From contig JAPOXG010000025.1 of assembly GCA_026707225.1 (NCBI GenBank), positions 62,001 to 126,000 on the forward strand: 64,000 nucleotides of DNA. Reading direction: 5' to 3'. Shown here in pieces: positions 30,871-36,775 of the stretch (position 1 is the stretch's first letter; the number at the start of each line of letters is the position of its first letter). Source of the DNA: Chloroflexota bacterium. GTDB taxonomy: Bacteria; Chloroflexota; Anaerolineae; Aggregatilineales; Phototrophicaceae. The notes beneath the pieces were generated by a model, which searched no databases, was not told the DNA's origin, and worked only from the letters and a program-made list of their open reading frames with translations. Position numbers and translations under genes: made by a program.

Positions 30871-30963
30871 TGTCTTTAGCGTAATGACAGAGCCGATTTG
30901 TCGAAGGTGCTTTACACTAGATATACTAGCGTTGGTTGGCAAAACCAAGGGGAGCACGATCCA

Positions 30964-31884
30964 ATGATTACCTATGTCGTTGGAGACCTATTTACAAGCC
31001 CAGCCAAGGTCCTGGTTAACACCGTAAACACAGTTGGAGTTATGGGTAAGGGTATTGCTCTTGACTTCAAGCGGATTTACCCGGACATGTTTATAGAATA
31101 CCAATACTACTGCGAAAACGGGATGTTGGACATTGGCAAACTGTGGCTCTACAAGACTCCGCACAAATGGATTCTGAATTTCCCGACAAAGAAACACTGG
31201 CGGAGTATGTCCAAGTCCGAATACATATCGGCGGGCCTAGATAAGTTCGTCAATACCTACGACTCAAAAGGGATCGACTCGATTTCATTCCCAATGCTGG
31301 GCTGCGGAAACGGTGAGTTAGACTGGAATACTGAAGTACAGCCCTTAATGGAGAAATATCTGGAGAAGCTGCCAATCAACGTATTCATACATATTCTTCC
31401 GCATGAGCACTATATTCGTCCTGAGCACAAAGCAATTGACGAAATGAAAAAATGGTTGCGGGAAGAACCCCATGCACTGTCATTTAGCGAGTTTTGGGAC
31501 GACTTGTCATACGTTGCCCGAAAACAGCATGACTTTTTTACCACTATTGGCAACACGCGATTTTCAATGATTCTGCTCGAAGACGAGGATAGCTTCCATC
31601 TTGCGACCCAGGATGACGTAATTGTAATTGGACTCGATGCACTCCGCGACTTCTGGCAGCTAGTGCGCAGCAGCGGCTATTGCAAGGGAAATGAGTTCCC
31701 AGCTGGTCTTAACCAATATCACCACTTCTTGATCCCGATTCTCGACCAATTGCCATATGTCCAGGCAACTCTTCTGTCGCGTCAATACAATGTAGATGCT
31801 ACCGACCTAGGCATTCAATTGATTCCGGAGTCCCAAGTCTTTGCACTACCCTCAATCGAAGTGCGACAGTCCATTACAGCATGA
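30964..31884 (+). CDS. DarG-like macrodomain protein (DNA ADP-ribosyl glycohydrolase antitoxin)
   Basis: 306 residues from the ATG at 30964 with GGGGAG upstream; the track start at 30898 is a TTG. The macrodomain (1 to about 165) has VGDLFTSPAKVLVNTVNTVG, VMGKGIALDFK and the DarG-like ILNFPTKKHWR, then LGCGNGELDW. In DarTG systems DarG removes ADP-ribose from thymidine in DNA. The C-terminal half (about 165-306) is acidic and unlike any domain I can name; in DarG this part binds the toxin. Codon use and GC are clearly lower than in neighbours. The stop overlaps the next gene by ATGA. Confidence 0.83.
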   Translation: MITYVVGDLFTSPAKVLVNTVNTVGVMGKGIALDFKRIYPDMFIEYQYYCENGMLDIGKLWLYKTPHKWILNFPTKKHWRSMSKSEYISAGLDKFVNTYDSKGIDSISFPMLGCGNGELDWNTEVQPLMEKYLEKLPINVFIHILPHEHYIRPEHKAIDEMKKWLREEPHALSFSEFWDDLSYVARKQHDFFTTIGNTRFSMILLEDEDSFHLATQDDVIVIGLDALRDFWQLVRSSGYCKGNEFPAGLNQYHHFLIPILDQLPYVQATLLSRQYNVDATDLGIQLIPESQVFALPSIEVRQSITA

Positions 31885-32879
31885 AATACGATAGTAAAAG
31901 GGATATACAATCGTATCGCGACACGATAAACAGCGTGGCGATGAGTCTCGATACCAATCGACGATGGTGGACCAACTATGTTTTCCACTTCACTTCAATT
32001 GGTAATGCAGCGAACATACTCAAGACTGGACATCTACTTTCGCGTACACAAGTCAGTATTCGATTGCCGGAGTTTGACGACAGCGCGAGCCCTGAAGTTA
32101 TGCACCAAACTCAGGACCAGTGGAAAGACTTTGTCAGATTCTATTTTCGACCTCGAACACCTACTCTGTATCACAATGAAGGATTTCGCCCAATACGTTC
32201 ACAACAGCTTAGCGCTCACTGTCCCATACCCATATACTTTCTTTTCGATTTTCTCTCAGTCATTGGTCATTCTGAAGCCGAGTTTTCGCCTGGAACATTA
32301 GCAAGATCAAGTGCCCTAACCTTTCGAACTGCGAATGAATTTTCCCGGTTACCCTTTGACAAAATATATCATGACTCTTGGTTTGACCAGGAAGACAAAG
32401 ATGACATCATAAGTGCGCGACAGGCTGAAGTCATCTATCCAGAAGAACTAAACCTTCGTTCACTGAAATTAATCTGCTGTCGCTCACCAGCGGAGAAGGA
32501 TACGCTACGCAATCTGCTTTCTTCACAATTGTGGGACGAATGGAAGGACAGGGTCAAGATCGTCGGACACCAACCTGTATACTTCAAAAAATGGCTATAC
32601 ATCGAAAGAGTTACGCTTGAGGATGATGCCGTACAACTTGAGCTTAATCTCCCTGAGCGCAGCGAGGACTATGGTCCGTTCGAAATTCGATCTACAGTAA
32701 CTGACGACATCACAGGTGTGTCGAAAGAAGTAGTAACGGAAAATGCAACGATTGATACAGGTCGGATGCGCTACTATGGACTAAAGAAATATGGCATCGC
32801 GGGTTATCAATATAGATGTTCAATTAACGATGATCTGGCATATCTCGGCAAGCATCAAGATCGGAGCATTCCCTTCTAA
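31881..32879 (+). CDS. DarT-like (DUF4433) DNA ADP-ribosyltransferase toxin
   Basis: 332 residues. The NAD-binding and catalytic signature of DarT is present: YVFHFTSIGNAANILKTGHL (H36), FVRFYFRPRTPTLYHNEG (R90/R92) and ARQAEVIYPEEL with E183 at the catalytic Glu position. DarT modifies thymidine in single-stranded DNA and blocks replication, often in phage defence. The family is usually near 200-230 residues; here a beta-rich extension of about 100 residues follows (from about 235). The region is AT-rich relative to flanks. Toxin follows antitoxin, the reverse of the common order. Confidence 0.8.
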   Translation: MKYDSKRDIQSYRDTINSVAMSLDTNRRWWTNYVFHFTSIGNAANILKTGHLLSRTQVSIRLPEFDDSASPEVMHQTQDQWKDFVRFYFRPRTPTLYHNEGFRPIRSQQLSAHCPIPIYFLFDFLSVIGHSEAEFSPGTLARSSALTFRTANEFSRLPFDKIYHDSWFDQEDKDDIISARQAEVIYPEELNLRSLKLICCRSPAEKDTLRNLLSSQLWDEWKDRVKIVGHQPVYFKKWLYIERVTLEDDAVQLELNLPERSEDYGPFEIRSTVTDDITGVSKEVVTENATIDTGRMRYYGLKKYGIAGYQYRCSINDDLAYLGKHQDRSIPF

Positions 32880-32927: not shown

Positions 32928-34424
32928 TCATGCCCCCGGCAGCCAAACGCGAAACTCCGCGCCTTTGCCTCGACCGCCGCTGTCGACAGTGATGCGGCCG
33001 CCATGCGCCTCGACAATCTCCCGCGCGATCGCCAGCCCCAGTCCCGTTCCCCGCCGGGGACCGCGAGCCTTGTCCACCTGGTAGAAGCGCTCGAACACCC
33101 TCGATAACTCCTCGCGCGGAATGCCCATGCCACTGTCTCGAATCGAGACGACCGCGCCAGCGCCAGCGCGCTCAACCGCCACCCCGACGACACCGCCCTC
33201 CGGCGTATATTTGAGCGCATTGCTAATCAGGTTCATCAATACTTGCGCCAGGCGATCGCCATCACCGATGATTGTCGGCGCCTGCTCGATAGCCGATTCC
33301 AGATGGATCTGCTGCTTTTCCGCGACGACAGCCAGGCTCTGTACCGCGCCCTCGGCGAGCTGAGCCATGTCGATGCGGTCGCTCGCCATTGACAGCCGGC
33401 CCGCCTGCAGCCGCTCCAGATCAGTCAGCTCAACCACCATCCGGTTCAGCCGGCCGGCCTCTTCGTAGATGATCTGCGCCGCTTCGCCGCTGTCTTCGGC
33501 CGCGCCATCGATGATCGCCTGGGCGTATCCTTGAATCGATGTCAGCGGCGTCTTGAGATCATGCGACACGTTGCTCAGAAAATCGCGCTGAGCCGTGTTA
33601 GCCGCCAGCACTTCCGCCGTCATCTGATTAAATGATTCGGCCAGCGAACGCGCTTCCGGCGGTCCGCTGACGGGCGCCCGCGCGGAATAGTCGCCGCGCG
33701 CCACCGCCGTTGCCGCCCGCGCCACGCGTTGCAGCGGTCGCGCGAAATTGCGGCTGATCAAGGCTGCCAGAATGATGGCGAATGCGAATCCAGCGATGCC
33801 AGCTTGCAGGAGCGGGGGCGCCAGCGCATTGCTGAAGACCGCCAGCGTCTCTTGCAAACTGACGGTCGGCTGAAGCTCGGCCAAGAGCCAGAGGTCGTTA
33901 TGGTCCACGCGTTCGGCAAAGAAGCGCTGCTGGCCAAAGACGACGCCGCCATAAAGCCATTCTCGCCCGCCGGGGTCTTCAAAGCCACCGAAGAATTGCC
34001 GGCTGCCACGCGACAGGACAGTTGCCAGTTGCTTGCTTCGGTATGCGTCTGCGCGCAAGTGAATCAGATCGCCCGGCGCATACTGCCGCGCGCTATCATA
34101 GATGACTCTGGTTTGGTCTTGAGTCAGCAGTATATGCAAGGTCCTCACGTTGCGCGTCCTGGCGAAGACGGCTAGCAACTCGTGCACCTGTTCCTGCAGG
34201 AAACGCCTGTTGGGATCCGCGGCGATATCAGCGATGGCATCAATGTAATTCAAGCCCTGCGTGAGCGCTGCCAGGCGCTCGTAAGTGGGCTGAGGCGGCG
34301 CGTCTCGATTGCCTATCAGGACGATCAGCGCCAATGCAATCACACTCAGCGTTACCAATATCAGTACCAAATACGAAGTCAGCAGCCGCAGTCGCAAATT
34401 GAAGCTAGGCATTCTCACGATCAT
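32928..34424 (-). CDS. Two-component sensor histidine kinase
   Basis: 498 residues. TM1 (LLTSYLVLILVTLSVIALALIVLI) and TM2 (IAGFAFAIILAALIS) bracket an extracellular sensor region of about 170 residues. HAMP (FARPLQRVARAATAVARGDY), HisKA with phosphoacceptor His in NVSHDLKTPLTSI, and HATPase boxes: N (LMNLISNALKYTPEGG), G1 (IRDSGMGIP), F/G2 (GTGLGLAIAREIVEAHGG). Its start overlaps the response regulator stop by 20 bp (ATG at 34412 would give 8 bp). The signal sensed is unknown. Confidence 0.93.
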   Translation of the reverse strand: MIVRMPSFNLRLRLLTSYLVLILVTLSVIALALIVLIGNRDAPPQPTYERLAALTQGLNYIDAIADIAADPNRRFLQEQVHELLAVFARTRNVRTLHILLTQDQTRVIYDSARQYAPGDLIHLRADAYRSKQLATVLSRGSRQFFGGFEDPGGREWLYGGVVFGQQRFFAERVDHNDLWLLAELQPTVSLQETLAVFSNALAPPLLQAGIAGFAFAIILAALISRNFARPLQRVARAATAVARGDYSARAPVSGPPEARSLAESFNQMTAEVLAANTAQRDFLSNVSHDLKTPLTSIQGYAQAIIDGAAEDSGEAAQIIYEEAGRLNRMVVELTDLERLQAGRLSMASDRIDMAQLAEGAVQSLAVVAEKQQIHLESAIEQAPTIIGDGDRLAQVLMNLISNALKYTPEGGVVGVAVERAGAGAVVSIRDSGMGIPREELSRVFERFYQVDKARGPRRGTGLGLAIAREIVEAHGGRITVDSGGRGKGAEFRVWLPGA

Positions 34425-35118
34425 CCAGTTTGTAGCCTACCCCCCAAATGGTATCAATCGTTGGGTCCATGCCGCGCAGTTTGTGGCGCAAATGGGCGAT
34501 GTGGACATCGACCGTGCGCGTTTCACCAGCGAAGTCATAACCCCACACAACCTCCAGCAGGCGCTCCCGGCTGAAGACGACGCCTTTGTTCTCGGCCAGC
34601 GTCTTCAGCAGATCAAACTCCTTCATTCGCAATTCCACGCTGGCGCCGGCGACCTCAACGCGGCGCCGCTGCGCATCAACGCAGAGGTTGCCGATGTTGA
34701 TCGGGGCTGGCGCCTCCTCGCGGGTGGCGCCACGATCCGCTCGCCGCAGGATCGCCCGGATCCGCGCGACCAACTCGCGTGGATTGAAGGGCTTCGTCAG
34801 ATAATCATCAGCGCCCAGTTCCAAGCCCACGATTTTGTCAATGTCATCGTTGCGCGCCGTCAGCATGATGATCGGGACATCCGATTCTTCCCGCACACGC
34901 CGACATACCTCCAGTCCGTCCATGCCCGGCAGCATCAAATCCAATACCACCAGGTTCGGTTTTTCCGTTAGAATCATACGCTTGGCAGCGGTCCCGTTGT
35001 TGGCGCTGGTGACGCGGAATCCGTCTTGCTCCAAATACATCCGCGCCAGGTCAATGATTCGCTGTTCGTCATCGACGACAAGAATGCTGTCGCTTTTGCT
35101 GTTGCCTGCTAATTCCAT
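34405..35118 (-). CDS. OmpR/PhoB-family response regulator
   Basis: 237 residues from the ATG at 35118; the track extends further upstream. Receiver domain: acidic pair in LVVDDEQRI, phosphoacceptor Asp in NLVVLDLMLPGMDG, Thr in IIMLTARNDD, Lys in DDYLTKPFNPREL. The winged-helix DNA-binding domain (about 140-232) ends with RTVDVHIAHLRHKLRG and TIWGVGYKL. Paired with the overlapping downstream kinase. A triple TGTAAA repeat at 35497-35524 is a plausible binding site. Confidence 0.95.
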   Translation of the reverse strand: MELAGNSKSDSILVVDDEQRIIDLARMYLEQDGFRVTSANNGTAAKRMILTEKPNLVVLDLMLPGMDGLEVCRRVREESDVPIIMLTARNDDIDKIVGLELGADDYLTKPFNPRELVARIRAILRRADRGATREEAPAPINIGNLCVDAQRRRVEVAGASVELRMKEFDLLKTLAENKGVVFSRERLLEVVWGYDFAGETRTVDVHIAHLRHKLRGMDPTIDTIWGVGYKLDDRENA

Positions 35119-35120
35119 CG

Positions 35121-35317
35121 TCAGCCTCGCCTGCCCATGAGCTGTGCGCTGGCCCATGATACAAGATCGCCACTTAGCCTCATCAGTTTCTCCATACGAT
35201 ACAGCAGTTCAGAGATCGTTTCACCTCGGCGGGCAGATTCTCTGCTTCAAGCCCGGCCAGGACTTCGATGTTCAATTCCGGCTCGATGTATTCTCGATCT
35301 GGATTGCAAATGGGCAT
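35121..35317 (-). pseudogene. Small gene upstream of the response regulator, apparently frameshifted
   Basis: An ATG at 35317 opens a frame with coding character (MPICNPDREYIEPELNIEVL) that then stops at 35183. A second frame, lacking a start, continues seamlessly as ISELLYRMEKLMRLSGDLVS and ends in a TGA at 35121-35123, two bases before the regulator ATG. A single lost base in the G run near GAGGTGAA would join both into about 65 residues. The family is not recognised. It could be a real lesion or a sequencing error. Confidence 0.45.
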
Positions 35318-35642
35318 AACTCAAATTCTCACTCAATTGGCCCAACATAAACCCAATGCAAGAGCAGCTGCGCTCAATGAATGCGCGCCCGCGGCGATGA
35401 TGTGACACGGTGGCTTCACGCGCCTCTCCATCGAATTCGTCGCAGGAGAGGCCCGCGCCCCTCAACGAACAGTGTGCCGTACAGTCATAACAAGTCTGTA
35501 AACGCCGTGTAAACTCCATGTAAAATATCTACGATCGAAGCGCTCATTCGCGTTCCGAAATCCGGCTGAATAATCCATACATTTGTTGCGTTATCTGCGA
35601 TACAATATCGGCTTCTTCTACTGGACGATACGAGAATGCGCG
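35318..35642. other. Divergent intergenic region upstream of the two-component operon and def
   Basis: 325 bp. Contains the triple TGTAAA repeat. The track ORF 35247-35519 has no coding character. An AT-rich stretch at 35510-35600 is likely promoter DNA for def. Confidence 0.5.
35497..35524. promoter_or_regulatory. Three TGTAAA direct repeats at 11-bp spacing (predicted OmpR/PhoB-type box)
   Basis: TGTAAA begins at 35497, 35508 and 35519, exactly one helical turn apart; the units read TGTAAAC, TGTAAAC, TGTAAAA with 4-bp spacers GCCG and TCCA. Seven-plus-four direct repeats are the classic layout bound by PhoB/OmpR-family regulators, and such a regulator is encoded next door. Confidence 0.55.
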
Positions 35643-36182
35643 ATGACGGTGCTGCAAGTCATTCAACCGGACAATCCGCTCCTGCGCCGCCCAGCCGCGC
35701 GCGTCGAAGACTTCGGGCGACAATTACAAGTTCTGATAGATGATATGCGCGACACCATGGTGCAAGCCCAAGGGATGGGACTGGCTGGTCCCCAAGTCGC
35801 TCGAAGCCTGCGCATCATTATGGCGCGCGCCCCGGAGAGCGAGGACAGCAAAGCGCCCTCCGCCGAAGCTGCCGGCAAGCTATACGTGGTCGCCAATCCC
35901 CAAATCATCAGGCGCAGCGAGCAAATGGTCAGCGGCGTGGAAGGCTGCCTTTCGCTACCAGGGCTGCTCGGCAATGTCGAGCGTCACGAGAGCATCGAAA
36001 TCGCTGGGCAGGATCGCGAAGGTCAGCCAATGCGGCTGCCGGCGTCGGGTCAGCTGGCGCGCGTGTTTCAGCACGAAATCGACCATCTCAACGGCATTCT
36101 CTATATAGACATTGCCACGAGCGTCTGGCGCCTTACCGAGGAAGACGAAGCTGCATTCGCCGGCGCCGCCAAGAGCCAATGA
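35643..36182 (+). CDS. def: Peptide deformylase
   Basis: 179 residues from the ATG at 35643 (MTVLQVIQPDNPLLRRPA); the track start at 35583 is upstream. All three metal-site motifs are intact: GMGLAGPQ, EGCLSLPG and QHEIDHLNG. It removes the N-terminal formyl group from nascent proteins. An insertion of about 15 residues rich in Glu/Ala (PESEDSKAPSAEAAG) sits between motifs 1 and 2. Its stop overlaps the following GNAT gene by 4 bp. Confidence 0.96.
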   Translation: MTVLQVIQPDNPLLRRPAARVEDFGRQLQVLIDDMRDTMVQAQGMGLAGPQVARSLRIIMARAPESEDSKAPSAEAAGKLYVVANPQIIRRSEQMVSGVEGCLSLPGLLGNVERHESIEIAGQDREGQPMRLPASGQLARVFQHEIDHLNGILYIDIATSVWRLTEEDEAAFAGAAKSQ

Positions 36183-36775
36183 GCGCGGTCATTCGCCTGG
36201 CAGCATCGGCCGACGCTGCCGATATCCATCAGATTTATCGCCCCTTCGTGCAGCATACGCACATCTCTTTTGAGCGAATCGTGCCGACGGTTCAGGAGAT
36301 TGCTGACAGAATCGACAGTACAATGAGGCAATACCCCTGGCTGGTTTGCGAAATCAATGGGCGGCTGGCCGGCTATGCTTATGCGAGCGCCTTCCGCGTC
36401 CGCGCCGCTTACCAGTGGACGGCTGAAACCACCGTCTACATCCATGCCGATTTTCAGCGGCGTGGCGTTTCGCGCGCATTGTACAGCTCGATGATCGCGA
36501 TCCTGCGCGAACAAGGCTATTGCAGCGCGGTTGGCGTTATCGCCCTGCCAAATGAAGGCAGCATACGGGCGCATGAATCAGTCGGATTTCGCAAAGTCGG
36601 CGTGTTCAGAAATATAGGCCACAAGGCGGGCGCCTGGCGCGATACCGGCTGGTGGCAGCTGGAGTTGCGCCAACCACCGGAAAAGCCGCGAGCGCCGCTG
36701 GCCATCACGCAGTTGGCAAATGAAGACAGATTCGACAATCTGCTGAAATCCGGCTTGCGATACATCCGCGCCTGA
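36179..36775 (+). CDS. Phosphinothricin/methionine sulfone-type GNAT acetyltransferase
   Basis: 198 residues. IRLAASADAADIHQIYRPFV, TSFE-like THISFERIVPTVQEIADRI, then TVYIHADFQRRGVSRALYSS with the Q-R-R-G-V-S acetyl-CoA loop and ALPNEGSIRAHESVGFRKVG are typical of the PAT/MnaT subgroup. Members acetylate phosphinothricin, methionine sulfoximine or similar amino acids, often incidentally. The start overlaps def by ATGA, suggesting coupling. Confidence 0.85.
   Translation: MSAVIRLAASADAADIHQIYRPFVQHTHISFERIVPTVQEIADRIDSTMRQYPWLVCEINGRLAGYAYASAFRVRAAYQWTAETTVYIHADFQRRGVSRALYSSMIAILREQGYCSAVGVIALPNEGSIRAHESVGFRKVGVFRNIGHKAGAWRDTGWWQLELRQPPEKPRAPLAITQLANEDRFDNLLKSGLRYIRA

Follow-up and report, generated by a model that had tools for sequence, protein, structure and literature searches.

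The three TGTAAA repeats that lie between a two-component operon and the divergent gene def, in the 64-kb stretch of Chloroflexota DNA analysed here (the window), are very likely the operator of that operon. Its response regulator would bind them, activate its own transcription and control a small regulon of genes that carry the same box. The evidence computed here comprises the repeats themselves, their conservation and spacing across a genus, the orientation of the adjacent genes, a fixed distance to the -10 hexamer and a set of recurring targets.

A tandem array upstream of a two-component operon

A first-pass annotation had described three TGTAAA hexamers at exact 11-bp spacing, and they are indeed present at 35497–35502, 35508–35513 and 35519–35524. 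Read on the minus strand, towards the two-component operon, the array becomes TTTACA-N5-TTTACA-N5-TTTACA, which is most likely its working orientation. In this orientation, half-site A (35519–35524) is the farthest from the regulator gene, followed by half-site B (35508–35513) and half-site C (35497–35502). Half-sites A and B make up the pair that is conserved across the genus; half-site C is perfect in the subclade of the window and often degenerate elsewhere in the genus, where a TTAC core is conserved. A weaker fourth unit, GTTATG, may continue the 11-bp register at 35486–35491 (minus strand, positioned by eye), and similar units are present in relatives.

A pattern search of the 4.34-Mb genome returned a single exact triple and no instance of the reversed pattern, which served as a control. 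Exact pairs are found at three places: the array itself, C56:45796 and C73:145152. Across the 64-kb window, TGTAAA-N5-TGTAAA with up to two mismatches has 5 matches against 0.88 expected, and no shuffle yielded that many. A search of 34900–36200 against Rfam returned no match.

The regulator gene (P0001; 34405–35118, minus strand, with an alternative start at 35157) encodes a protein of 237 amino acids that has a receiver domain (PF00072, 1.2e-32) and a winged-helix Trans_reg_C domain (PF00486, 5.3e-26), both above the Pfam cut-off, and is therefore of the OmpR/PhoB type. The gene for the sensor histidine kinase (P0002; 32928–34424, minus strand; 498 amino acids with HAMP, HisKA and HATPase_c domains) overlaps its end. 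The array has the layout of an operator for such a regulator, a head-to-tail direct repeat with a unit of about 10–11 bp, both in the sequence itself and in the genus-wide spacing.

The leader between the array and the regulator gene contains what alignment indicates is the remnant of a small open reading frame (ORF; 35125–35310, minus strand, reading frame assigned by eye). In close relatives (for example, L047 and L051–L053), the leader has an open ORF of about 63–66 codons that ends just before the ATG of the regulator; the copy in the window has a one-base deletion relative to these and appears to be frameshifted.

On the plus strand, def (peptide deformylase, 35643–36182) is the divergent neighbour and is followed by an acetyltransferase gene (36179–36775). 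The product of the latter scores 212.8 bits with the NCBIfam model for arsinothricin resistance N-acetyltransferase ArsN1 family B, above the cut-off of 210 bits, and throughout the genus the gene keeps its synteny with the regulator. Two further overlapping plus-strand ORFs (30898–31884 and 31881–32879) resemble, by eye, a DarT/DarG-type toxin–antitoxin pair, a likeness read from the sequence through a macro-domain-like start and the context.

Conservation and spacing across the genus

The first-pass annotation had interpreted the repeats as tandem OmpR/PhoB-type half-sites and suggested that they autoregulate the operon, a reading to be abandoned if the motif were not conserved upstream of orthologous regulators. 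It is conserved: when regulator coordinates were compared with TGTAAA-N5-TGTAAA sites, 32 of the 34 genomes from the same genus proved to have an exact 11-bp pair upstream of the regulator's orthologue. Genome comparison thus strongly supports the tandem half-sites and the predicted autoregulation of the operon. Of the two exceptions, G001 retains the pair in degenerate form, and G033, an atypical genome of 8.5 Mb, lacks it. In a second collection, which overlaps the first and is therefore not fully independent, all 21 genus loci have a pair that matches at 12 of 12 letters, with the TTTACA strand directed towards the regulator. The close relatives are metagenome-assembled Chloroflexota, several of which are labelled Anaerolineae.

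Exact pairs are enriched throughout these genomes, with 94 occurrences (about 3 per genome) against 8 of the reversed pattern in 33 genus genomes, a count that omits the outlier G033. The enrichment is specific to the spacing: a comparison of the three spacings in 21 genus genomes counted 59 exact pairs at 11 bp, against 5 at 10 bp and 4 at 12 bp. Across the genus, def or the acetyltransferase gene for the most part remains in synteny, and the box lies between about 50 and 380 bp from the regulator.

A fixed promoter register

We tallied TATAAT-like hexamers by their distance (offset) from the first base of the second half-site. A -10-like hexamer lies exactly 37 bp from this point in 26 of 41 non-redundant promoters; the next-best offset has 10, with a mean of 2.4, and in 2,000 shuffles the highest count was 10. 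Further cases fall one unit away, at offsets 26 and 48, and go together with arrays that are a unit shorter or longer. Setting the -10 hexamer at -12 to -7 puts the first base of half-site A at about -60, that of half-site B at about -49 and that of half-site C at about -38, where a -35 element would be expected. The consensus of the regulator promoters in the genus comprises A, B, the weaker TTAC core at C and the -10 hexamer. The thymidine phosphorylase and Rieske-type sites described below do not fit offset 37.

In the window, the predicted -10 hexamer is CACACT (35471–35476, minus strand), 37 bp from the start of half-site B, which implies a leader of more than 300 nucleotides. It is a poor match to TATAAT when taken alone and was found only through aligning promoters on the box. 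A scan of 35100–35700 for consensus sigma-70 signals found neither a promoter nor a terminator. The lack of a consensus -35/-10 promoter fits a promoter that needs help, and the fixed distance between the box and the -10 hexamer suggests that this help is activation.

Very probably, the phosphorylated regulator occupies the three 11-bp units in a head-to-tail arrangement along a single face of the helix. The bound array would then lie upstream of, and reach into, the -35 region of its own promoter, where the regulator would most likely recruit RNA polymerase to a weak promoter without a consensus -35. Binding would require phosphorylation, presumably in response to a signal sensed by the kinase. 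At target promoters with the same box, orientation and promoter distance, the same regulator would act in the same manner.

Alternatively, the bound regulator could cover the -35 region through half-site C and shut off its own promoter while activating other targets. Half-site C does occupy the expected -35 place, and both WalR (PMC7299342) and RpaB (PMC11633204) activate or repress depending on the position of the site. We nevertheless regard such negative autoregulation as unlikely, because the regulator promoter and most targets share the same -10 offset, for which one sign of control throughout is simpler, and because the absence of a consensus promoter fits one that needs help. That the repeats are a product of chance, or a conserved element with no regulatory role, is barely credible. 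TGTAAA is a short and fairly common word, but the genus-wide enrichment, the specificity of spacing, the orientation and the promoter register all contradict this explanation.

Predicted regulon and the question of def

The regulon survey covered exact-match sites, of which 53 outside the regulator loci were fetched. At 48 of the 53, a gene of at least 150 codons starts within 160 bp on the TTTACA strand. Seven sites also have such a gene on the other strand, and at none of the 53 is such a gene found on the TGTAAA strand only. Recurring targets include a secreted M16 peptidase, a secreted protein of unknown family (about 255 amino acids), a protein with two fasciclin domains, thymidine phosphorylase (divergent from a thioredoxin/DsbA-like protein), a DUF4956 protein with CotH, and a Rieske-type protein; one recurring site is flanked by YceI on one side and a metallo-beta-lactamase-fold protein on the other. 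Signal peptides were assessed by eye. On this basis, the regulon is very probably a small set of genes, mostly for exported or membrane (cell-surface) proteins, that is controlled by the same regulator.

In the genome from which the window derives, the box precedes the gene for the secreted protein of unknown family and that for thymidine phosphorylase, and, with one mismatch, YceI. A search of this genome found no fasciclin target. Its M16 gene lies at a contig end and has only a degenerate TTTGCA-N5-ATTACC, yet CATGCT is present at offset 37. In L104 and L110, from other families, proteins with short repeats like those of the secreted target family (GL..LR.AL..G.TI.EL.EANG.D) adjoin boxes, a weak likeness (E values of 0.008 and 0.04).

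The first-pass annotation had also raised the possibility that the array controls def; in this reading it would work in the plus orientation, on def alone or on the operon as well. The gene is divergent and about 146 bp from the array, and this distance is fairly constant (about 146–180 bp in most genomes that have def), whereas the distance to the regulator varies. The sequences nevertheless do not support such control, which we consider quite improbable. On the def strand, -10-like hexamers do not gather at any one offset (the best accounts for 5 of 21), sites across the genus point to genes on the TTTACA strand as tallied above, with none serving a TGTAAA-strand gene alone by the criterion used, and the box is kept where a def match is absent from the fetched flank (for example, L035 and L037).

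Probable identity of the binding regulator and occurrence beyond the genus

The protein that binds the array is very probably the regulator encoded at 34405–35118, as judged from its proximity. A different OmpR-type regulator might bind instead, in which case the operon would belong to the regulon of another system and would not be autoregulated. The genome encodes several other OmpR-type regulators, a class in which half-sites of this kind are common, and several regulator families share half-sites that resemble TTTACA. A case in point comes from family f8, in which a perfect TTTACA triple (L240:5181-5208, and also in L105–L108; conserved in four genomes) lies between a different two-component system, the regulator of which is less similar (39% identical), and a secreted protein with two PDZ domains; the half-site alone therefore does not identify the binder. 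Against this, the box stays with the present regulator in nearly all of the genus genomes, and none of the exact or one-mismatch sites in the genome of the window lies beside the other OmpR-type regulators that were found there. In G041, from another family of the order, an exact pair is located 95 bp upstream of a gene for a cognate-type kinase, which is homologous to the present one over its full length (43% identity, E = 9e-103); the regulator is encoded on a different contig. This pair links the box to the two-component system independently. Taken with the conservation, these observations make binding by another regulator improbable.

Beyond the genus, two orthologues from Dehalococcoidia (57–60% identity) are preceded by TTTACA-N5-TTTGCA (shuffle p below 0.005), with a -10-like CATACT or GAAACT at offset 37 by hand count. 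Orthologues from other genera are mostly without a clear box. Across the phylum, 7 of 29 orthologues reached a shuffle p of 0.01 or less, with varied half-sites, and phylum-wide autoregulation is for this reason only suggested. Many of the orthologues without a box perhaps lack it because they are not first in their operons.

Comparison with known systems

The best family models for the regulator are MtrA, YycF and PhoB, and those for the kinase are WalK, PnpS and PhoR; all score below their cut-offs. The operon thus resembles OmpR-type systems that are autoregulated, with a box like that of wal, yet is not filed as WalRK, MtrAB or PhoBR. Among NCBIfam models, that of MtrA matches the regulator best, and the MtrB model spans nearly the whole kinase (residues 9–496), but both are below the curated cut-offs (237.9 against 300 bits and 196.8 against 450 bits, respectively).

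In the PhoP box of Bacillus subtilis, a TTAACA-like unit recurs about every 11 bp close to the promoter; the array resembles it in its TTTACA-like units on the coding strand, its 11-bp spacing and its location just upstream of or in the -35 region. The pho box of Escherichia coli, in which PhoB binds two 11-nucleotide direct repeats head to tail (PMC4415409), is similar in its unit length, head-to-tail layout and location next to the -10 hexamer, and differs in half-site sequence. The scores for PhoB (229.3 against 296.2 bits) and PhoR (203.4 against 334.2 bits) do not reach the cut-offs for PhoBR/PhoPR, and there are no phosphate genes among the recurring exact-match targets examined.

The HLR1 element bound by RpaB in cyanobacteria, (G/T)TTACA(T/A)(T/A)NN(G/T)TTACA(T/A)(T/A) (PMC11633204), shares the directly repeated TTACA core and, for activation, a location upstream of promoters. 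Its repeat is 10 bp, in contrast to 11 bp here, where 10-bp pairs are not enriched, and the regulator falls below the RpaB cut-off (227.5 against 330 bits).

The box of WalR/VicR (YycF) of Firmicutes is TGTWAH-N5-TGTWAH (PMC4168254), which all three units of the array fit exactly. Both are direct repeats for an OmpR-type regulator with a regulon rich in exported proteins. Here, however, there are three units and the TGTAAA strand reads away from the gene under control, and the operon appears to be autoregulated, whereas wal operons are reported not to be (PMC9210968). We found none of the peptidoglycan hydrolases or their inhibitors that belong to the WalRK regulon among the recurring exact-match targets scanned. 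The regulator does not reach the YycF equivalog cut-off of NCBIfam (237.0 against 340 bits), and the match of the kinase to WalK (261 against 725 bits) is confined to the kinase core. No PAS domain was found in the kinase; WalK of Clostridioides difficile also lacks an intracellular PAS domain (PMC9210968).

Although this kind of element is well known, the circuit itself appears not to have been described before. Our broadest proposal, which we put forward tentatively and at slightly less than even chances, is that Chloroflexota have a hitherto undescribed two-component system that regulates itself and acts like a wal-type envelope regulator, with a regulon mainly of surface and exported proteins rather than peptidoglycan hydrolases, and with the box, the register and the link to the kinase extending beyond the genus (G041 and the two Dehalococcoidia).

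A repeat of three copies thus marks a regulatory circuit whose operator, promoter register, orientation and target genes can be followed through more than 30 genomes of a genus that is uncultured. For organisms with few cultivated relatives, this provides a transcription signal and a regulon that can be tested. It also shows the WalR box, TGTWAH-N5-TGTWAH, to be present in a further phylum, where it accompanies a different gene set and apparent autoregulation.
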